The notes below the pieces were generated by a model, which worked only from the letters and a program-made list of their open reading frames with translations, was not told where the DNA came from and did not search any database. 64,000 nucleotides of DNA from Defluviimonas salinarum (lineage in GTDB: Bacteria > Pseudomonadota > Alphaproteobacteria > Rhodobacterales > Rhodobacteraceae): NCBI RefSeq assembly GCF_026013545.1, contig NZ_JAPDOG010000018.1, forward strand, positions 1 to 64,000. The letters are read 5' to 3'. Below are positions 6,818-48,271 of this stretch, in pieces (position 1 is the first letter of the stretch; every line of letters begins with the position of its first letter). The position numbers and the translations under genes are program-made.

Positions 6818-6986
6818 GACTTCCTCCTGACAATCATCATGTGGCCGGGAGGGATGGCCGAGGCGCGTGTCGGCCATTGGGACACCGGCCGAAGTGAAGA
6901 CCAAGAAATTATCGTGACATGATAACACGATATCGGCCACTTGTCGCGTACGGAAGGTGGTCGGGCGCGACCGGCCGGGCGCAAAT

Positions 6987-7016
6987 CGGCCCCGGACTGT
7001 GAGCGGTCCGGGGCCG
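6987..7016 (-). terminator. Putative metF terminator hairpin
   Basis: A perfect 11-bp stem, CGGCCCCGGAC (6987-6997) paired with GTCCGGGGCCG (7006-7016), encloses an 8-base loop. It lies 17 bp beyond the metF stop on the minus strand. The following bases on that strand are GATTTGC, a weak T tract, so termination is plausible but not certain. Confidence 0.5.
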
Positions 7017-7033
7017 GCTTGCCGAACGTCCCT

Positions 7034-7900
7034 TCAGGCGACGTTCTGCAGGGAGACCTGCGGCTCGAGCCCGAGCGCGTGGCAGATCTCGCGCGTCAGG
7101 TGCGGCCGGTTGAGCGTGTAGAAGTGCAGATCCTCGACGCCGCCCTGGATGAGGTCGTCGCAGAGCTCGGTCGCGAGCGCGGTGGCGAGGAGATGCTCGC
7201 GCCCGTCGCGGATCGCCTTGTCGAAGGTCTTGTCGAGCCAGTCCGGCACCGAGGTGCCGCAGCGCTCGGCGAAGCGCCGCGCACCGGACCATGAGATGAT
7301 CGGCAGGATGCCGGGGATGATCGGCGCGTCGATGCCGGCCTTCTCGCAGGCGTCGCGGAAGCGGAAGAAGCTCTCGGCCTCGAAGAAGAACTGGGTGATC
7401 GCCGAGGAGGCGCCGGCGTCGATCTTGCGCTTCAGCCAGGCGACGTTCGCCGCCATGTCGGCGGCCTCGGGATGGGCCTCGGGATAGGCGCCGACGCGGA
7501 TTGTGAACTTGCCGGTCTCGGCCAGCGCCTCGATCAGTTCGACCGAGGAGGCGAAGCCTTCGGGATGGGCGCTGAAGCTCTCCTCGCCCTTCGGCGCGTC
7601 GCCGCGGAGCGCCACGATCTCGGTCACGCCGGCCTTGGCGTAGCTCTCGGCGATCGCGAGCGTCTCGGCGCGGGTCGCATCGACGCAGGTGAGATGCGCC
7701 GCGACGTTGAGGCCGTAATGGTCGCCGATCGTGGTGACCGCCTCATGCGTCAGCTCGCGGGTCGTGCCGCCGGCGCCGTAGGTGACCGAGACGAAGTTCG
7801 GCTTCAGGGGCGCAAGCATCTGCACCGTCTCCCACAGCCGGAACGACGCGTCGAGCGTCTGGGGCGGGAAGAACTCGAAGGAAATCCGGGGTGCAGGCAT
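7034..7900 (-). CDS. metF: 5,10-methylenetetrahydrofolate reductase
   Basis: This 288-residue flavoprotein reduces 5,10-methylene-THF to 5-methyl-THF for methionine synthesis in the cytoplasm. The family signature is clear: SFEFFPP at the N-terminus, FVSVTYGAGG, HLTCVDATR, ALRGDAPKG, AGASSAITQFFF and PGILPI. The start at 7900 (MPAPRISFEFF) has GAGGACGACACG upstream and was chosen over an in-frame ATG 36 bases earlier. It is divergent to metR, the usual alphaproteobacterial arrangement, so control by MetR with homocysteine as co-effector is expected. It competes with the FolD enzymes at 19395-21193 for methylene-THF. Confidence 0.95.
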   Translation of the reverse strand: MPAPRISFEFFPPQTLDASFRLWETVQMLAPLKPNFVSVTYGAGGTTRELTHEAVTTIGDHYGLNVAAHLTCVDATRAETLAIAESYAKAGVTEIVALRGDAPKGEESFSAHPEGFASSVELIEALAETGKFTIRVGAYPEAHPEAADMAANVAWLKRKIDAGASSAITQFFFEAESFFRFRDACEKAGIDAPIIPGILPIISWSGARRFAERCGTSVPDWLDKTFDKAIRDGREHLLATALATELCDDLIQGGVEDLHFYTLNRPHLTREICHALGLEPQVSLQNVA

Positions 7901-7928
7901 CGTGTCGTCCTCGTGTTGGATGGGCTCT

Positions 7929-7954
7929 TGTCTCATATCGGAGGACGTGAGACA
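7929..7954. promoter_or_regulatory. metF-metR intergenic inverted repeat
   Basis: TGTCTCA (7929-7935) and TGAGACA (7948-7954) form a 7-bp inverted repeat in the 108-bp gap between the divergent metF and metR genes. LysR-type regulators bind interrupted dyads in exactly this position. The repeat is a candidate MetR site; it does not match the enteric MetR box, so this is positional inference. Confidence 0.35.
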
Positions 7955-8008
7955 AATTCATAATTCTCAAGATCAATATGAGGTAGATCGGATGATAGCG
8001 GGGCGGCG

Positions 8009-8914
8009 ATGCATCTCGAGCTGAGGCATCTGCGGACGATCAAGGCGATCCACGAGGCCGGCGGTCTGGCGCGGGCGGCCGAGCAGCTCAACATCACCCA
8101 GTCCGCACTCAGCCATCAGGTCAAGGGGCTGGAAGAGCAGGCGGGGGTGGAGCTCTTCGTGCGTCGGTCGAAGCCCTTGAAGCTCTCGGCGGCGGGGCTG
8201 CGGATGCTGCGCACCGCCGAACGGGTGCTGCCGGAGATCGCGGCACTCGGCGAGGAGTTCCGCTCGCTGAGGTCGGGCAAGAGCGGGCGGCTCCATATCG
8301 CGATCGAGTGCCATGCCTGTTTCGACTGGCTCTTTCCGGTGCTGGAGCAGTTCCGCCGCGCCTGGCCCGAGGTCGATGTCGATATCCGCCCCGGCCTCGC
8401 CTTCGAGGCTCTGCCGGCGCTGGCGCGGGAGGAGGTGGACCTCGTGGTCTCCTCGGATCCCGAGACGCTGTCGGGCATCGTGTTCCGACCGCTCTTCGAC
8501 TATGCGCCGACCTTCGTGGCGGCACGGCAGAACCCGCTGGCGGAAAAGCCCTTCGTCGTGGCCGAGGATTTCCGCGACCAGGTGCTGATCACCTATCCGG
8601 TGGACCGCGCCCGGCTCGACATCTTCTCCGAGGTGCTGCGCCCGGCGCGGGTCGAGCCGCTGGCGGTGCGGCAGGTCGAGCTGACGGCGGTGATCCTGAT
8701 GCTGGTCGCGTCGAACCGGGGTGTTTCGGTGTTGCCCGACTGGGTGCTGCGAGAGGTGAAGTACCAGCCCGACTACGTCACCCGGCCGGTGACCGAAAAG
8801 GGGCTGACGAAGCGGATGTATGCCGGGGTCCGCGAGGCGGAGGCGACGCGGCCCTTCATGGCGCATTTCCTCAAGCTCGCGCGGAGCGAGCCGGTGAAGC
8901 TGCAGCGGGCCTGA
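8009..8914 (+). CDS. metR: LysR-family regulator of methionine genes
   Basis: The 301-residue protein has a LysR winged helix (HLRTIKAIHEAGGLARAAEQ, then QSALSHQVKGLE, residues about 3-60). A periplasmic-binding-protein-like effector domain follows. Its position divergent to metF, its length and the motif YVTRPVTEKGLTKRMYAGVR in the C-terminal half fit MetR. It should activate metF in response to homocysteine. The next gene starts 3 bp after its stop codon, so the phosphodiesterase is probably cotranscribed. Confidence 0.85.
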   Translation: MHLELRHLRTIKAIHEAGGLARAAEQLNITQSALSHQVKGLEEQAGVELFVRRSKPLKLSAAGLRMLRTAERVLPEIAALGEEFRSLRSGKSGRLHIAIECHACFDWLFPVLEQFRRAWPEVDVDIRPGLAFEALPALAREEVDLVVSSDPETLSGIVFRPLFDYAPTFVAARQNPLAEKPFVVAEDFRDQVLITYPVDRARLDIFSEVLRPARVEPLAVRQVELTAVILMLVASNRGVSVLPDWVLREVKYQPDYVTRPVTEKGLTKRMYAGVREAEATRPFMAHFLKLARSEPVKLQRA

Positions 8915-8916
8915 CG

Positions 8917-9684
8917 ATGCATCCGTTCCTCGACCATCCGAAACCGATCGCCTTCGCCCATCGCGGCGGTGCGCTCGAGGCCGAGGAGAACACGGAGGCC
9001 GCCTTCGCCCATGCGGCGGCGCTGGGGTACAGCCATATCGAGACCGATGTGCAGGCGACCCGCGACGGTGTGGCGGTGATCTTCCACGACGACACGCTGG
9101 AGCGCATGGCGGGGCGGCCCGAGCGGGTCGATGCGCTCGACTGGGCCGAGCTGTCGCGGGTCCGGACGCGGGGCGGGGCGGCGATTTCCCGGCTCGACGA
9201 CGTGCTCGCGGGCTTTCCGAGGCTCTACGTCAATCTCGAGGCGAAGTCGGATGCGGCGGTCGAACCGATGGCGGCGACGATCACGGCGGCGGGCGCGCTC
9301 GGGCGGGTCTGCGTGGGATCCTTCGAGCCGCGCCGGACGGCGCGGCTCTGCGCGGCGCTCGGGCCCGGGCTTTGCTGGTCGCCGGCCCATGCGGGCGTGG
9401 CGCGGCTCTGGCTCGCGGGCTGGGGGCTGCCGGTGGCGGTCGGCGGGTTTCCCGCGGTGCAGGTGCCGCCCACGCATCGCGGCATACCGCTCGTCACCAA
9501 GCGGTTCGTCCGCGCCGCCCATGCGCGCGGGATCGAGGTCCATGTCTGGACCGTCGACGCGGCCCCGGAGATGGAGCGGCTGATCGATCTCGGCGTCGAC
9601 GGGCTGATGAGCGACCGGCCGACGCTCCTGCGCGCGGTGCTCGCCGGCCGCGGGCTCTGGCGCCCGCGGCCGGCGGGTGTCTGA
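8917..9684 (+). CDS. Glycerophosphodiester phosphodiesterase
   Basis: The 255-residue protein has the GDPD TIM-barrel signatures: FAHRGG at residues 9-14, the metal ligands in EENTEAAF and HIETDVQATRDG, and FHDDTLERM. A conserved EAKSD strand and a C-terminal HVWTVD follow. It hydrolyses glycerophosphodiesters to an alcohol and glycerol-3-phosphate. No signal peptide is seen, so it is likely cytoplasmic (UgpQ-like). The ATG lies 3 bp after metR, indicating translational coupling. No phosphate transporter is nearby. Confidence 0.88.
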   Translation: MHPFLDHPKPIAFAHRGGALEAEENTEAAFAHAAALGYSHIETDVQATRDGVAVIFHDDTLERMAGRPERVDALDWAELSRVRTRGGAAISRLDDVLAGFPRLYVNLEAKSDAAVEPMAATITAAGALGRVCVGSFEPRRTARLCAALGPGLCWSPAHAGVARLWLAGWGLPVAVGGFPAVQVPPTHRGIPLVTKRFVRAAHARGIEVHVWTVDAAPEMERLIDLGVDGLMSDRPTLLRAVLAGRGLWRPRPAGV

Positions 9685-9768
9685 GGGCGGATTTCGGGCG
9701 CCCGGCCCCTTCACAACCGGCCCGGGCGCGCGTATAGGCACGGGCTTGATGACAAGGAGCCGGGGCCG

Positions 9769-10560
9769 ATGCAGGGCAGTGCCAACCTCAACCTGATGAT
9801 CAAGGCGGCGCGCAAGGCCGGCCGCAGCCTCGTGAAGGATTTCCGCGAGGTGGAGAACCTGCAGGTTTCGGTCAAGGGGGCGGGGGACTTCGTCAGCCGC
9901 GCCGATCTCGCGGCCGAGAAGATCATCCGCGACGAACTGATGGCCGCGCGGCCGACCTATGGCTGGCTCGGCGAGGAGACCGGCGAGACCGCGGGCGCCG
10001 ACCCGACCCGGCGCTGGATCGTCGATCCCCTCGACGGGACCACGAACTTCCTTCACGGCCTGCCGCACTGGGCGGTGTCGATCGCGCTCGAGCACAAGGG
10101 CGAGATCGTCGCGGGCGTGGTGTTCGATCCGGCCAAGGACGAGATGTACTGGGCCGAGAAGGGCGCGGGCGCCTGGATGAACGAGAGCCGGATCCGGGTC
10201 TCGGGACGGCGCTCGATGGTCGAGGCGGTGTTCGCGACCGGGGTGCCGTTCGGGGCCAAGAAGACGCTGCCGGCGACCCTGCGCGACCTCGCGCGGCTGA
10301 TGCCGGCCTGTGCCGGGGTGCGGCGCTGGGGCTCGGCCTCGCTCGACCTCGCCTATGTGGCGGCGGGACGCTACGACGGCTTCTGGGAGCGCGAGCTCGG
10401 GGCCTGGGACATGGCGGCGGGGCTTCTCCTGGTGCGCGAGGCCGGCGGTTTCACCGACGCGGTGCGCGAGGGGCGCGACATCTTAGAGTCCGGCGCGGTG
10501 ATCGCGGCCAATGGCGAGCTTTTCGGCGCGCTCGCGAAGATCCTGCGGGAAGACGCCTGA
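9769..10560 (+). CDS. suhB: Inositol monophosphatase family protein
   Basis: The 263-residue protein carries the Li+-sensitive phosphatase signatures. GEETGE supplies the metal-binding glutamate, WIVDPLDGTTNFLHG the metal aspartates, and ELGAWDMAAG the C-terminal motif. Members hydrolyse inositol-1-phosphate or related sugar phosphates; the bacterial SuhB protein also acts in rRNA transcription complexes. An AGGAGCCGGGGCCG sequence precedes the ATG. It appears monocistronic, ending before a double hairpin. Confidence 0.88.
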   Translation: MQGSANLNLMIKAARKAGRSLVKDFREVENLQVSVKGAGDFVSRADLAAEKIIRDELMAARPTYGWLGEETGETAGADPTRRWIVDPLDGTTNFLHGLPHWAVSIALEHKGEIVAGVVFDPAKDEMYWAEKGAGAWMNESRIRVSGRRSMVEAVFATGVPFGAKKTLPATLRDLARLMPACAGVRRWGSASLDLAYVAAGRYDGFWERELGAWDMAAGLLLVREAGGFTDAVREGRDILESGAVIAANGELFGALAKILREDA

Positions 10561-10585
10561 GGGCGCGCCCGGGCCGGGCCGGGTA

Positions 10586-10623
10586 AGGGGGCTGTCCGCC
10601 CCCTCTTGCCGCTCATGCGGCAA
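10586..10623. terminator. Double-hairpin bidirectional terminator of Rhodobacteraceae type
   Basis: Two stems follow each other in the gap between convergent genes. One is AGGGGGC/GCCCCCT (10586-10604, loop TGTCC); the other is TTGCCGC/GCGGCAA (10606-10623, loop TCAT). They are followed by TTCACCCCCGAGGGTATTT. Very similar blocks recur in intergenic regions of many Rhodobacteraceae genomes, from memory. It probably ends transcription of suhB and of the GFA gene from both sides. Confidence 0.55.
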
Positions 10624-10657
10624 TTCACCCCCGAGGGTATTTCGGCAATGAAGAAGA

Positions 10658-11047
10658 TCAGGTCCGGTCGGACGGGTGGTCGATGCCATCGGTCCAGGCG
10701 ACCGGATCGAGGTCGCGCGGGTTGACGCCGTCGAGGCAGGCGGCGTTGAGCCCGTATTCGTTCGGGTTCGAGCGGCGGCGGTGGTGGGTGTAGATGCCGC
10801 AGGTCTTGCAGAAGTAGTGCTTCGCCGTGCCGGTGTTCCAGGTGTAGAGCGTGAGGTTGTCTTCGCCCTTCACCACGCGGAGCCCGTCGAGCGGCACGGT
10901 GACGGTGACGGCGCCACGCCTCGCGCAGAACGAACAGTCGCAGCGCCGCGCCGTGGCGAGGCCTTTCGGGGCGAGGGTGACTTCGAGCTCGACCGCGCCG
11001 CAATGGCAGCGGGCAGGGTGGGGCTTGCGGATCTCGGGCAGGGTCAT
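10658..11047 (-). CDS. GFA-domain (glutathione-dependent formaldehyde-activating-like) protein
   Basis: The 129-residue protein has the zinc-binding cysteine pattern of the Gfa/CENP-V family: CHCGAV near residue 14, CDCSFCARRG near 37, and CKTCG near 82. The prototype Paracoccus Gfa binds S-hydroxymethylglutathione, but most family members have no assigned reaction, so formaldehyde handling is only suggested. The start ATG overlaps the stop of the upstream rhomboid gene (ATGA), so the two are translationally coupled. Confidence 0.82.
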   Translation of the reverse strand: MTLPEIRKPHPARCHCGAVELEVTLAPKGLATARRCDCSFCARRGAVTVTVPLDGLRVVKGEDNLTLYTWNTGTAKHYFCKTCGIYTHHRRRSNPNEYGLNAACLDGVNPRDLDPVAWTDGIDHPSDRT

Positions 11048-11787
11048 TTGCGCCTCCGGCGGATGACCGGGATCGAGGACGGGGAATACTCGGTCTCGGG
11101 ATGGGGCGGGCGGCCCTGCGTCCGCTGCCAGAAGGCGGCCGCGCCGCGCCTCAGCCACAGGGGCAGCGTCAGCGCCATGCCGGCGGCGAAGCCCCCCGCA
11201 TGGGCCCAGTAGGCAATGCCGCCGGCCTCGGACGGGGTGCCGAGGCCGCCGAGGATCTGCATGCCGAACCAGAGCCCGAGCATGACCCAGGCCGGCAGTG
11301 CGAAGACCCGGAAGAAGACGAAGAAGATCACGAGGATGTCGATCCGGGCGCGGGGGAAAAGCAAGAGGTAGCCGCCGAGGACGCCGCCGATCGCGCCCGA
11401 GGCGCCGACCGTGGGCACGACCGAGCCGGGATCGGCGGCGATATGCGCCGCGGCCGCGGCAAGGCCCGAGACGAGGTAAAAGGCGAGGAAGCCGAGATGC
11501 CCCATCTGGTCCTCGAGATTGTCGCCGAAGATCCAGAGAAAGAGCATGTTGCCGGCGAGATGCATGAGTCCGGCATGGAGGAACATCGAGGTGAGGACGC
11601 CGCGGACCTCGCCACCCTCGGTGACGGCCGCCGGGATCATCGCCCAGTCGCGCCAGAAAACCATCATCGCGCGTTCGCTGTTCATGTGGGGCAGCTGCAG
11701 CAGGAACGCGACGATGTTCGCGGCGATCAGGCCGTAGACCACATAGGGCGTGCGCCGGGAGGGGTTGTGGTCGCGGATCGGGAACAT
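11044..11787 (-). CDS. Rhomboid-family intramembrane serine protease
   Basis: The 247-residue protein has about six hydrophobic segments. The catalytic serine is in GASGAIGG and the catalytic histidine in YWAHAGGFAAG; HAGLMHLAGNM supplies the oxyanion histidine and asparagine. GlpG-type rhomboids cleave membrane proteins within the bilayer; the substrate here is unknown. The ATG at 11787 (MFPIRDHNPS) gives the typical rhomboid N-terminus and was preferred over an upstream in-frame start. Confidence 0.88.
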   Translation of the reverse strand: MFPIRDHNPSRRTPYVVYGLIAANIVAFLLQLPHMNSERAMMVFWRDWAMIPAAVTEGGEVRGVLTSMFLHAGLMHLAGNMLFLWIFGDNLEDQMGHLGFLAFYLVSGLAAAAAHIAADPGSVVPTVGASGAIGGVLGGYLLLFPRARIDILVIFFVFFRVFALPAWVMLGLWFGMQILGGLGTPSEAGGIAYWAHAGGFAAGMALTLPLWLRRGAAAFWQRTQGRPPHPETEYSPSSIPVIRRRRK

Positions 11788-44672: not shown

Positions 44673-45632
44673 ATGCGGCTGGCGGAGACGGTGACATTCG
44701 GAGGCGCGGGGCTCGACCGGGCGGCCGGGCTGCGCGGCGATCCGGAGGCGGTCGCGGCGCACCTCTGCGCCGGGGAGACGCGAATCCTGCCGGTCTGGCG
44801 CGGCAAGCCGCTGTTCGCGGGGAATGCCGCGGGCTGGTTGCCGCCCGGCCATGCGGTGCTCGCCGAGGCCGCGGAGGCGCCGGTGCTGCTCGGGCTCGAG
44901 GGTGGTGCGGCGCGGTTCGCGGTCGATGTCTCGGGCTGGGAGCCCCCTGCGGGCGAGGCACTGGCGGAGGGGGTCTTCTTCGATCCGACCGAGCAGCGTC
45001 ATCCGGCCCTGCCGGGCGATCACCGCTTCGCCGAGCTGCGCGGGCTCATGGCGGAGCTTGCGGCCGGGGACGCGGAGCTTGTGGCGACCGCGAAGGCGCT
45101 TCTCGGCTGGCACCGGAGCCACCGGTTCTGTTCGGCCTGCGGCCGCCCGAGCGCGGTGATCGAGGCGGGCTGGCAGCGCCGCTGCCCGGACTGCGGGACA
45201 CGGCATTTCCCGCGCACCGATCCGGTGGTGATCATGCTCGTCACGTGCGGCGAGCGGACACTGCTCGGCCGCTCGCCGGGCTGGCCCGAGGGCATGTATT
45301 CGTGTCTCGCGGGCTTCATGGAGCCGGGCGAGACGATCGAGGCCGCGGTGCGCCGCGAGGTCGCCGAGGAGACCGGGGTGCGGATCGGGCGGGTAAGCTA
45401 TCTCGCGAGCCAGCCCTGGCCCTATCCCTCGTCACTGATGATCGGCTGCCTCGCCGAGGCCGAGAGCGAGGCGATCACGCTCGACCCGGTCGAGCTGGAG
45501 GCGGCGGTCTGGATCGGCCGCGAGGAGGCGGCGCGGGTGCTGGCCGGGGACCATCCGACGATCCGCCGGCCGCGGCGGGGGGCGATCGCGGGGTTCCTGC
45601 TGACCCATTGGGTTGCGGACCGGCTGGATTGA
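44673..45632 (+). CDS. nudC: NADH pyrophosphatase (NAD-decapping Nudix hydrolase)
   Basis: The 319-residue protein has the NudC layout: a variable N-terminal domain, a zinc ribbon with four cysteines (CSACGRP and CPDCGTRHFPRTDP), then the Nudix box GFMEPGETIEAAVRREVAEE. The QPWPYPSS motif specific to NADH pyrophosphatases follows. It hydrolyses NADH and NAD-capped RNA. The ATG at 44673 has GCGGAGCGGGCG before it; an in-frame GTG 36 bases upstream is an alternative. Confidence 0.93.
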   Translation: MRLAETVTFGGAGLDRAAGLRGDPEAVAAHLCAGETRILPVWRGKPLFAGNAAGWLPPGHAVLAEAAEAPVLLGLEGGAARFAVDVSGWEPPAGEALAEGVFFDPTEQRHPALPGDHRFAELRGLMAELAAGDAELVATAKALLGWHRSHRFCSACGRPSAVIEAGWQRRCPDCGTRHFPRTDPVVIMLVTCGERTLLGRSPGWPEGMYSCLAGFMEPGETIEAAVRREVAEETGVRIGRVSYLASQPWPYPSSLMIGCLAEAESEAITLDPVELEAAVWIGREEAARVLAGDHPTIRRPRRGAIAGFLLTHWVADRLD

Positions 45633-45671
45633 CGCCATTAGACCGGGCATGCGGATGAGGGAGATGAGCGC

Positions 45672-46145
45672 GTGAAGTTTTCCACGGTGCAGGACATTGC
45701 GGCCCCGGCTGATCTGGTCTTCGACGCGGTGTCGGACTTCGCCGCGTTCGAGCGTGCCGCGTTGCGGCGCGGGGCGGAGGTGTCGCGGGTCGACCGGCCC
45801 GAGGAAGGCATCCTCGGCACCACCTGGAGCCTGCGGTTCCCGTTGCGCGGGCGGATGCGCCGCCTCGTCTGCGACGTGCAGCGATTCGAACCGCCGAACG
45901 CGATGCTGGTGGCCGCGGAAAGCGGCGGCTTCGAGATGACGCTCAACGTCGGCCTCGTGGCGCTGGCGCGGGCGCGGACACGGCTGGGCCTCGATCTCGA
46001 GATCAGGCCGCGCTCGATGACCGCGCGGCTGATGCTGCAGACGCTGAAGCTGAAACGCGCGAGCTACATGCGCGAGTTCGAGGGCCGGGTGAAACGCTAT
46101 GCCGGGGAACTGGAGCAGCGCCACGCCCCCGGCCGCGTCGAGTGA
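45672..46145 (+). CDS. SRPBCC-family (START-like) protein
   Basis: The 157-residue protein starts at GTG 45672 behind GAGGGAGATGAGCGC. It shows the SRPBCC beta-helix-grip pattern: an AAPADLVFDAVSDFAAFERA opening, central strands around WSLRFPLRGRMRRL, and a long C-terminal helix. Such proteins bind hydrophobic ligands. Its last 20 codons form the first part of the tandem repeat array that fills the gap to pheA. The stop TGA lies inside repeat unit 1, so the array was built from this gene's own 3' end. Confidence 0.78.
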   Translation: MKFSTVQDIAAPADLVFDAVSDFAAFERAALRRGAEVSRVDRPEEGILGTTWSLRFPLRGRMRRLVCDVQRFEPPNAMLVAAESGGFEMTLNVGLVALARARTRLGLDLEIRPRSMTARLMLQTLKLKRASYMREFEGRVKRYAGELEQRHAPGRVE

Positions 46146-46889
46146 TCGGACTCAGGGACGCGACGGGTTGGCCGGGTAGACGCCGAGAAGCGACTTCGAC
46201 GAGAGGGGGCGAGTTCCTCGCGCGTGGCGGACATGGGTGTCCTTCGGGTGAAACGCGAAGCCGGGGAACTGGAGCAGCACCAAGCACCCGGCCGCGTCGA
46301 GGGACCCGGCGCAGGGACGCGACGGGTCGACCGGGCAGACGCTGAGGAGCGACTTCGACGAGAGGGGGGCGAGCTCCGCGAGCGCGAGGCGGACGTTGGT
46401 GTCCTCCGGGTGAGACGCCAAGCCGGGGAACTGGACCAGCGCCATGCCCTGGCCGCGTCGGGTGATCCGGCGCAGGGACGCGACGGGTCGGCCGGGCGAC
46501 GCCGGGAAGCGACTTCGAAGTGAACGGGGCGAGCTCCTCGCGCGTGGCGGACATGGGTGTCCTCCGGGTGAAACGCCAAGCCGGGGAACTGGACCAGCGC
46601 CATGCCCCGGCCGCGTCGGGTGATCCGGCTCAGGGACGCGACGGGTCGGCCGGGCAGACGCCGGGAAGCGACTTCGAAGTGAACGGGGCGAGTTCCTCGC
46701 GCGTGGCAGACATGGGTGTCCTCCGGGTGAAACGCCATGCCGGGGAACTGGAGCAGGACCACGCACCCGGCCGCGTCGAGGGACCTGGCTCAGGGACGCG
46801 ACGGGTCGGCCGGGTAGACGCCGAGAAGCGACATCGACGAGGTGAAGTAGTCGAGCTCCTCGAGCGCGAGGCGGACGTTGGTGTCGTCC
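46087..46889. repeat. Five tandem ~160-bp units built from joined 3' ends of two convergent genes
   Basis: Units begin at 46087, 46246, 46408, 46566 and 46725, with lengths 159, 162, 158, 159 and 165. Each opens with GGGTGAAACGC..GCCGGGGAACTGGA, the 3' end of the SRPBCC gene. Each continues with CAGGGACGCGACGGG..CGGGCAGACGCC..GCGACTTCGA, matching the pheA 3' end read on the other strand. Unit 1 contains the real SRPBCC stop and unit 5 the real pheA stop and final codons, so both genes are intact. Units 3 and 4 are almost identical and thus youngest; units 2 and 5 share the GTCGAGGGACC variant. CCGGGTG at both junctions suggests microhomology started the duplication. Confidence 0.9.
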
Positions 46890-47623
46890 GGGTGGCCTTC
46901 GATATCGGCGTAGAACTGGGTCGCGGAGAACGAGCCGTCGACCATGTAGCTTTCGAGCTTGGTCATGTTGACGCCGTTGGTCGCGAAGCCGCCCATCGCC
47001 TTGTAGAGCGCGGCCGGGATGTTGCGGACGCGGAACACGAAGGTGGTCATCATCTTGCCGTCGCCGCGCCGGGCGAGGTTCGGCTCGCGCGCCATGACGA
47101 GGAAGCGGGTGGTGTTGTGCGCCCGGTCCTCGATATGGCGGGCGATGAGGTCGAGCCCGTAGATCTCGCCGGCAAGCTCGGAGGCGAGCGCGGCGAGCTT
47201 CGGATCGCCGAGCTCGGCGACGTGGCGCGCCGATCCGGCGGTGTCGGCGCCGGTCACCGGCTTCAGCCCGTGCTTGGTGAGGAAGTTGCGGCACTGGCCG
47301 AGGAGCACGGTGTGGCTCATCGTGCCCTCGATCTCCTCGAGCCGGGTGCCGGGCACGGCGAGGAGGTTGATGTGCACGCGCACGAAGGTCTCGGCGACGA
47401 TGTGGAGGCCGGATTCGGGCAGGAGGTGGTGGATGTCGGCCACGCGCCCGTAGGTCGAGTTCTCGACCGGCAGCATCGCGAGCTCGGCGCGGCCGCTGCG
47501 CACCGTCTCGATCGTGTCCTCGAAGGTGGCGCAGGGCAACGCCTCGAGGTCCGGATAAGCCTGGTGGCAGGCCTGATGCGAATAGGCTCCGGGCTCTCCC
47601 TGGAAGGCGATCCGACCGGTCAT
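46790..47623 (-). CDS. pheA: Prephenate dehydratase
   Basis: The 277-residue protein converts prephenate to phenylpyruvate for phenylalanine synthesis. The catalytic domain has IAFQGEPGAYSHQACHQ, LPVENSTYGRVADIHHLL, the conserved TRF motif in NTTRFLVMA and a C-terminal ACT domain with the GALxxAL-like IPAALYKAMGGFA and ESYMVDGSFSATQFYADIEGH in part. No chorismate mutase domain is fused. It lies divergent to the cytochrome c gene. Its last 33 codons lie in unit 5 of the tandem array, and decayed copies of them recur in units 1-4. Confidence 0.94.
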   Translation of the reverse strand: MTGRIAFQGEPGAYSHQACHQAYPDLEALPCATFEDTIETVRSGRAELAMLPVENSTYGRVADIHHLLPESGLHIVAETFVRVHINLLAVPGTRLEEIEGTMSHTVLLGQCRNFLTKHGLKPVTGADTAGSARHVAELGDPKLAALASELAGEIYGLDLIARHIEDRAHNTTRFLVMAREPNLARRGDGKMMTTFVFRVRNIPAALYKAMGGFATNGVNMTKLESYMVDGSFSATQFYADIEGHPDDTNVRLALEELDYFTSSMSLLGVYPADPSRP

Positions 47624-47743
47624 GGGGGTGGCTCCTTGGCGACAGCCCGGCTCCGGGCGCTTCGCGGCGCTAACTATACCTTGAAACCGGGCAGGGGAAG
47701 CGGGTAGATACGCCGCGACGGAATGCCAGGGTAGAGGCGCGAC

Positions 47744-48271
47744 ATGTTCGACACGATGACTGTAACGAAGGCCGGCGGCGCGCTGTGCGGGGCTTTCCTG
47801 ATCTTCCTTCTGGGCAAGTGGGCGGCCGAGTCGCTCTACCATACCGCCCCGGCCGCGCATGGCGGCGAGGAGGTCGCGCAGGCCTACACGATCGACACCG
47901 GCGCCGAGGCGGGCGGCGGGGAAGCCGCGGCCGAGGAAGGCCCGGACTTCGCGACGCTGCTGGCTTCGGCCGACGCCGCGGCTGGCGAGAAGGTCTTCGG
48001 CAAGTGCAAGGCCTGCCACAAGCTAGACGGCTCGAACGGCACCGGTCCGCATCTCGACGGCGTGGTGAACCGCGCGGTGGGCGCTGTCGCGGGCTTCGGC
48101 TACTCGGACGCGATGGCCGGTCATGGCGGCACCTGGGATCCCGAGACGCTCTCGGCCTTCCTCGAGGATCCGAAGGGCAATGTCGCCGGCACCAAGATGT
48201 CCTTCGCCGGCCTCAAGAAGCCCGAGGACCGCGCCAACCTGATCGCCTATCTGCAGTCGCTCGGCGGCTGA
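47744..48271 (+). CDS. Membrane-anchored cytochrome c (c-y/c552 type)
   Basis: The 175-residue protein has an uncleaved N-terminal anchor ([20 protein letters not shown]). A flexible Ala/Gly/Glu-rich linker follows, then a class I cytochrome c domain with the haem motif CKACH and the methionine ligand in GTKMSF. Cytochromes of this type carry electrons from the bc1 complex to terminal oxidases such as cbb3, whose genes lie at 61665. The family is called cycM or cycY in Rhodobacter and Paracoccus. It ends before a clear terminator. Confidence 0.9.

Follow-up and report, generated by a model that had tools for sequence, protein, structure and literature searches.

The window, i.e., the whole 64-kb stretch of Defluviimonas salinarum DNA that was analyzed, holds two convergent genes, an SRPBCC-type gene and pheA, with a tandem array at their junction. 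The features of the locus are as follows, in window coordinates.

45672-46145, plus strand: intact SRPBCC-type gene (Polyketide_cyc2, PF10604, E 6.9e-08), whose last 58 coding bases and stop codon open unit 1
46085-46091, plus strand: CCGGGTG at the left breakpoint, inside the SRPBCC gene
46085-46243: unit 1, 159 bp, with the working SRPBCC 3' end (stop TGA at 46143-46145) and a decayed pheA copy with gaps of 3, 1, and 2 nt, its stop triplet kept
46244-46405: unit 2, 162 bp, with the SRPBCC stop changed from TGA to GGA and the pheA stop from TCA to GCA; the pheA copy has a 3-nt gap only
46406-46563: unit 3, 158 bp, with a 1-nt deletion in the SRPBCC copy; the pheA copy has gaps of 1, 3, and 2 nt and has lost its stop
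46564-46722: unit 4, 159 bp, with a 1-nt deletion in the SRPBCC copy; the pheA copy has gaps of 3 and 2 nt and keeps its stop triplet
46723-46887: unit 5, 165 bp, with an SRPBCC copy that has lost its stop (GGA) and the working pheA 3' end (stop, TCA on the plus strand, at 46790-46792); the closing CCGGGTG follows the unit
46888-46894, plus strand: CCGGGTG at the right breakpoint, inside pheA
46790-47623, minus strand: intact pheA, prephenate dehydratase (PF00800, E 4.3e-56)

Tandem Repeats Finder (longest period 500) reported the array at 46085-46894 with a period of 159, 5.0 copies, 86% matches, and a score of 1110, and listed it a second time at period 319 (score 1149); the remaining four arrays of the window scored only 57 to 61. 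Alignment resolved all five units into the same order of parts: the last 58 coding bases of the SRPBCC gene, its stop position, a 6-bp spacer, the stop position of the opposite strand, and, reversed, roughly 100 bp from the 3' end of pheA. In a BLAST control, the 644 bp between the two working stops matched each gene end four times, at 87 to 92% and 82 to 87% identity. The initial annotation, made from the sequence alone, had described five tandem units of 158 to 165 bp between the two genes, each joining an SRPBCC 3' end to an oppositely oriented pheA 3' end, and both the repeat finder and the alignments agree with it. It had also placed the real stops in the outermost units, which is where they lie: the SRPBCC gene ends in unit 1 and pheA in unit 5. 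The two proteins (157 aa and 277 aa, respectively) end about where those of relatives end and thus carry no altered tail at present, so the suggestion that the array is a source of altered protein tails found no support. Head-to-tail copies of one unit of tens to hundreds of base pairs make a bacterial minisatellite, and that is what the array is: a case of a known kind, which gives no hint of a novel molecular system.

CCGGGTG stands at both outer edges, and the identity there covers exactly 7 bp, with flanks that differ (GAGGG and AAACGC around the left copy vs GTCGT and GCCTTC around the right one). The microhomology proposed earlier at the two breakpoints was thus recovered. Identity runs of at least 7 were found at 308 of 200,000 random point pairs (~0.15%), drawn 140 to 180 bp apart in the window, with draws starting at 45900-47100 (~2%) skipped. 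The internal borders at 46406, 46564, and 46723 read CCGGGTG as well, and the border between units 1 and 2 (46244) reads TCGGGTG. At each internal border pheA-like sequence lies to the left of the motif and SRPBCC-like sequence to the right, as expected if a pheA copy was there joined to an SRPBCC copy. Short identity common to both breakpoints is the mark of a microhomology-mediated tandem duplication, and the 7 bp found here fit slippage or microhomology-mediated joining, an event that we infer from the junctions; no two-unit intermediate of such a duplication was found. Caution comes from Salmonella, for which the excerpted text of a study of spontaneous duplications with short junction identity gives 11 bp as the shortest verified case and lists 7- and 9-bp candidates as not verified (PMC3411829); these lengths would advise restraint about a 7-bp origin.

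The spare pheA copies have departed from the working end in a common manner. All four carry GACTTCGA for GACATCGA, have lost 3 nt, and read GTCCT for GTCGT. Of the 11 relatives aligned, all share the A and the 3 nt with the working end, and 8 have its G at the third of these positions (C in L073, A in L077 and L011). Since relatives mostly keep the working-end state, it is most likely that the common departures originated in a spare copy, before amplification or in its course. Three of the four spare pheA copies (units 1, 3, and 4) have frame-shifting gaps of 1 or 2 nt. Not every spare end is frameshifted, because the copy in unit 2 has an in-frame 3-nt loss only, yet its stop is gone; we counted this copy against the decay-based reading. 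Unit 2 is also a mosaic, whose right end aligns like the working pheA end. Compared with unit 5, the pheA copies differ at codon positions 1/2/3 by 4/4/3 (unit 1), 3/6/2 (unit 2), 3/6/4 (unit 3), and 4/6/5 (unit 4) mismatches. With no third-position excess, the spare pheA copies give no sign of coding constraint.

Among the spare SRPBCC copies, the stop is lost in units 2 and 5 and the frame in units 3 and 4. Their mismatches to unit 1 amount to 5/5/12 at the three codon positions, summed over four comparisons that are not independent. This third-position excess could mean that the working copy has changed or that constraint is weak, and may count weakly against decay. Identity reaches 97% between units 3 and 4 (5 mismatches and 1 gap) vs 84 to 91% in the other nine pairs, and the former two probably represent the most recent growth step of the array; the recent expansion or homogenization read from this pair at first inspection stands.

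The MIRU elements of mycobacteria are minisatellite-type repeats that are dispersed, some of them with variable copy number. According to the excerpted text of one report, they occupy 41 locations in H37Rv (PMC2734929). A dispersed family of this type was considered for the unit found here and rejected: in a search of the 5.0-Mb genome, with 40 of 81 first-look candidates scored, the five array units matched at E 8e-79 to 3e-40 and were the only ones with E below 0.05, the next match having E 0.0575. Neither of the two findings that the initial annotation had named as refuting it turned up: the units do hold both gene ends, and, on the same 40 of 81 scored candidates, the genome yielded no dispersed copy. 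The unit differs from the dispersed MIRUs in having been found at one locus only.

A genome rich in such arrays was also considered and set aside: twenty sampled stretches of 20 kb (400 kb, ~8% of the genome) contained two other arrays with a period above 100 bp. One, at L152:15193-16737 (G000:C4), has a 312/624-bp period and lies in a 2091-aa frame that encodes domains of the cadherin, bacterial Ig, RTX, and calcineurin-like phosphoesterase types. The other, at L153:9150-11472 (G000:C4), has a 318/609/927-bp period and lies in frames of RTX calcium-binding repeats; two open frames of different phases overlap there and cover the array (6973-9426 and 9173-11713), an arrangement that two genes, a frameshift, or an error in sequencing may explain. 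The periods of both arrays are multiples of three (one extra L152 listing has a 623-base consensus), and both sit in coding frames. The junction array is of a different kind. Neither of the two arrays with a period above 100 bp in the sampled stretches lies at a gene-gene junction, genes having been mapped at the array sites only. A shorter array at L158:11673-11995 (G000:C23), with a 42-bp period, 7.7 copies, and 95% matches, lies in an 864-aa frame with no Pfam match, where other frames are open too.

Searched with the DNA of the whole region, 21 congeners (one genome per species) showed matches to the two genes and none to an array. The junction could be read in 18 of them, 17 of which have a single convergent junction with a gap of 1 to 35 bp; G024, from another genus, has a gap of 8 bp. 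Single junctions in congeners, together with the unit alignment, uphold the original proposal that the gene-gene junction itself was duplicated while both genes stayed intact. The exception among the 18, G010, carries an unrelated 835-bp insert between the two genes (L055:2341-3175, C8), with a 120-aa minus-strand open reading frame that matches Lumazine_bd_2 (PF12893, E 5.9e-23). In G018, outside the junction count, there was no SRPBCC match and the pheA match was cut short. In G001:C1 (L056) and G002:C7 (L057), the SRPBCC gene and pheA still face each other on one contig but lie ~39.7 kb apart, and Tandem Repeats Finder detected no array beside either gene. The SRPBCC gene is followed in L056 by a rhodanese-domain gene and an oxidoreductase/AIRS-domain fusion, and in L057 by open reading frames of the same lengths as in L056 (354, 726, and 336 aa) plus a tRNA-Met. 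The separation in these two genomes probably goes back to a common rearrangement or insertion at the junction.

Beyond the congeners, an SRPBCC homologue lies downstream on the opposite strand in 55 of 80 named pheA loci (the best 80 of 587), with gaps of at most 35 bp in 37, 36 to 100 bp in 8, and more than 100 bp in 10. These loci came from a scan with PheA; a scan of genome contigs with the SRPBCC protein gave no match. As both congeners and named loci mostly have a narrow gap, the tight convergent junction is likely ancestral. Arrays with a period of at least 25 were detected by Tandem Repeats Finder in 7 of the 80 named loci, all upstream of pheA, and none downstream of it. The gaps of the 15 linked named loci (of 55) with more than 60 bp and that of G010 showed no similarity to the gene ends (blastn, E 1e-3) and thus hold no remnant of a single duplication. 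The idea of a hot spot for junction arrays gained no support, Tandem Repeats Finder having detected no other array between the genes in 24 loci, 55 relatives' loci, and the 80 named pheA loci. Among the genomes compared, the array was seen in D. salinarum only.

We consider it highly probable that the array is a lineage-specific, passive minisatellite that arose by microhomology-mediated duplication of the junction, decay of the spare ends, and later unequal recombination, most likely without a function of its own. The ancestor would have had the two convergent genes with their stops 6 bp apart, as suggested by the spacer of 6 bp that every one of the five units retains and by the 1- to 35-bp gaps of the 17 congeners. 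A segment of ~160 bp, bounded by one CCGGGTG in either gene, would then have undergone tandem duplication through slippage or microhomology-mediated joining, as the breakpoint identity suggests. Such a duplication would be harmless: with the full 3' ends of the two genes inside the segment, each gene kept one working end. The spare ends would have decayed thereafter, and unequal recombination may have joined the decayed SRPBCC end of the right unit to the decayed pheA end of the left one, raising the count to five. Units 2 to 4, each with a spare SRPBCC and a spare pheA end, would be products of unequal crossing-over between the two initial units, and the step that formed units 3 and 4 was presumably the latest. 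The effect of the array would be to move the stops from ~6 bp to 644 bp apart, and most likely nothing beyond that.

The persistence of units that are mostly 9 to 16% diverged counts against uselessness, for a useless repeat need not persist. In one bolder reading, which we hold to be improbable, the repeat locks itself in place: contraction would yield a decayed SRPBCC tail, and selection against such products would keep a functionless array in a neutral ratchet. Judging by the translations, a contraction that recombines the SRPBCC part with unit 5 would fuse the SRPBCC protein to a frame without a stop that stays open through pheA in antisense to 47707; with unit 2, the fused frame would remain open as far as 46523, and units 3 and 4 hold frameshifted copies. 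Contraction may therefore be costly as a consequence of inner-end decay, and a useless array might be held where it is.

A passive origin has to be weighed against the possibility that the array is kept for insulating the convergent genes, polymerases colliding in spare DNA with less antisense overlap into the coding parts. The stops lie 644 bp apart here vs 1 to 35 bp in 17 of 21 congeners, and the unrelated insert of G010 and the gaps above 100 bp in 10 of 55 linked named loci would also fit insulation; they indicate that the junction spacing is free to grow. A gap of at most 35 bp nevertheless suffices in those 17 congeners and in 37 of the 55 linked named loci. Intrinsic-terminator-like sites (a GC-rich hairpin followed by a T run) numbered 0 in 45600-47800 (mean of 0.5 in shuffles), so that this is not an array of intrinsic terminators, and the same interval held no sigma-70-like promoter, in a scan that covers sigma-70-like promoters and intrinsic terminators but not other promoter types or Rho-dependent ends. 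Folds of the units (142 to 150 nt, both strands) stayed at shuffle level in 9 of 10 cases (z of -1.25 to +0.53); the tenth, the minus strand of unit 5 with the real pheA end, had a z of -2.09 and was counted against the passive reading. With no terminator-like site and nearly all folds ordinary, the bidirectional transcription-collision or termination function first envisaged for the array found no support, and we judge insulation to be quite unlikely.

There is still less reason to suspect that the units or their number come from misassembly. The assembly is a draft in 88 contigs, and the number of units of the type of units 3 and 4 is the least certain, because these two are nearly identical; the other nine unit pairs, 9 to 16% different and with distinct indels, were not created by misassembly of one locus, which makes an artifact very unlikely. 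Least probable of all is a repeat that is transcribed from one side and works as an RNA or a peptide, the gene ends being mere raw material: long open frames do run through sections of the array on either strand but are expected at a GC content of ~70%, no frame stays in register through all units because one of the five lengths (159, 162, 158, 159, and 165 bp) is not a multiple of three, Rfam gave no family at gathering score (two subthreshold hits both lie outside the array), and 9 of 10 folds are at shuffle level.

The passive minisatellite has partial parallels. In the excerpted account of Yersinia pestis VNTRs, 10 of 88 loci overlap stop codons and 6 of 88 start codons, with motifs of 1 to 60 bp; its authors expected less effect at stop-codon overlaps, yet found low diversity there (PMC3689786). 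Like the array described here, those stop-codon VNTRs are tandem repeats that include a gene 3' end and its stop codon; as excerpted, that account (PMC3689786) names one gene end per locus, whereas the present unit of ~159 bp holds two opposite gene ends. In the Mycobacterium tuberculosis complex, the rnc-fpg1 repeat (ETR-F/VNTR3239) extends from a point 40 bp past the rnc stop up to the start codon of fpg1, and its length is reported, in the text excerpted, to correlate with fpg1 expression (PMC2734929). It resembles the present array in being lineage specific and in occupying a junction that is a few to some tens of base pairs wide in other mycobacteria but, as excerpted, contains no two convergent 3' ends (PMC2734929). 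Stop-codon VNTRs are thus already published, and what sets the present array apart is that a single unit contains the ends of two convergent genes. Among the matches listed in open-licence PMC (titles and abstract starts), none describes a unit of this type, which is no proof of absence.

To conclude, the array records a tandem duplication that crossed a gene boundary and left both genes whole, with the outermost ends under selection and the inner ends decaying. A self-locking ratchet, if true, could preserve junction duplications generally. Variation of the copy number between isolates is plausible, the near-identity of units 3 and 4 suggesting no more than a recent change, and the array would be usable as a strain marker if the copy number does vary. 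The locus thereby offers a clean case for the birth of a minisatellite in compact bacterial genomes.
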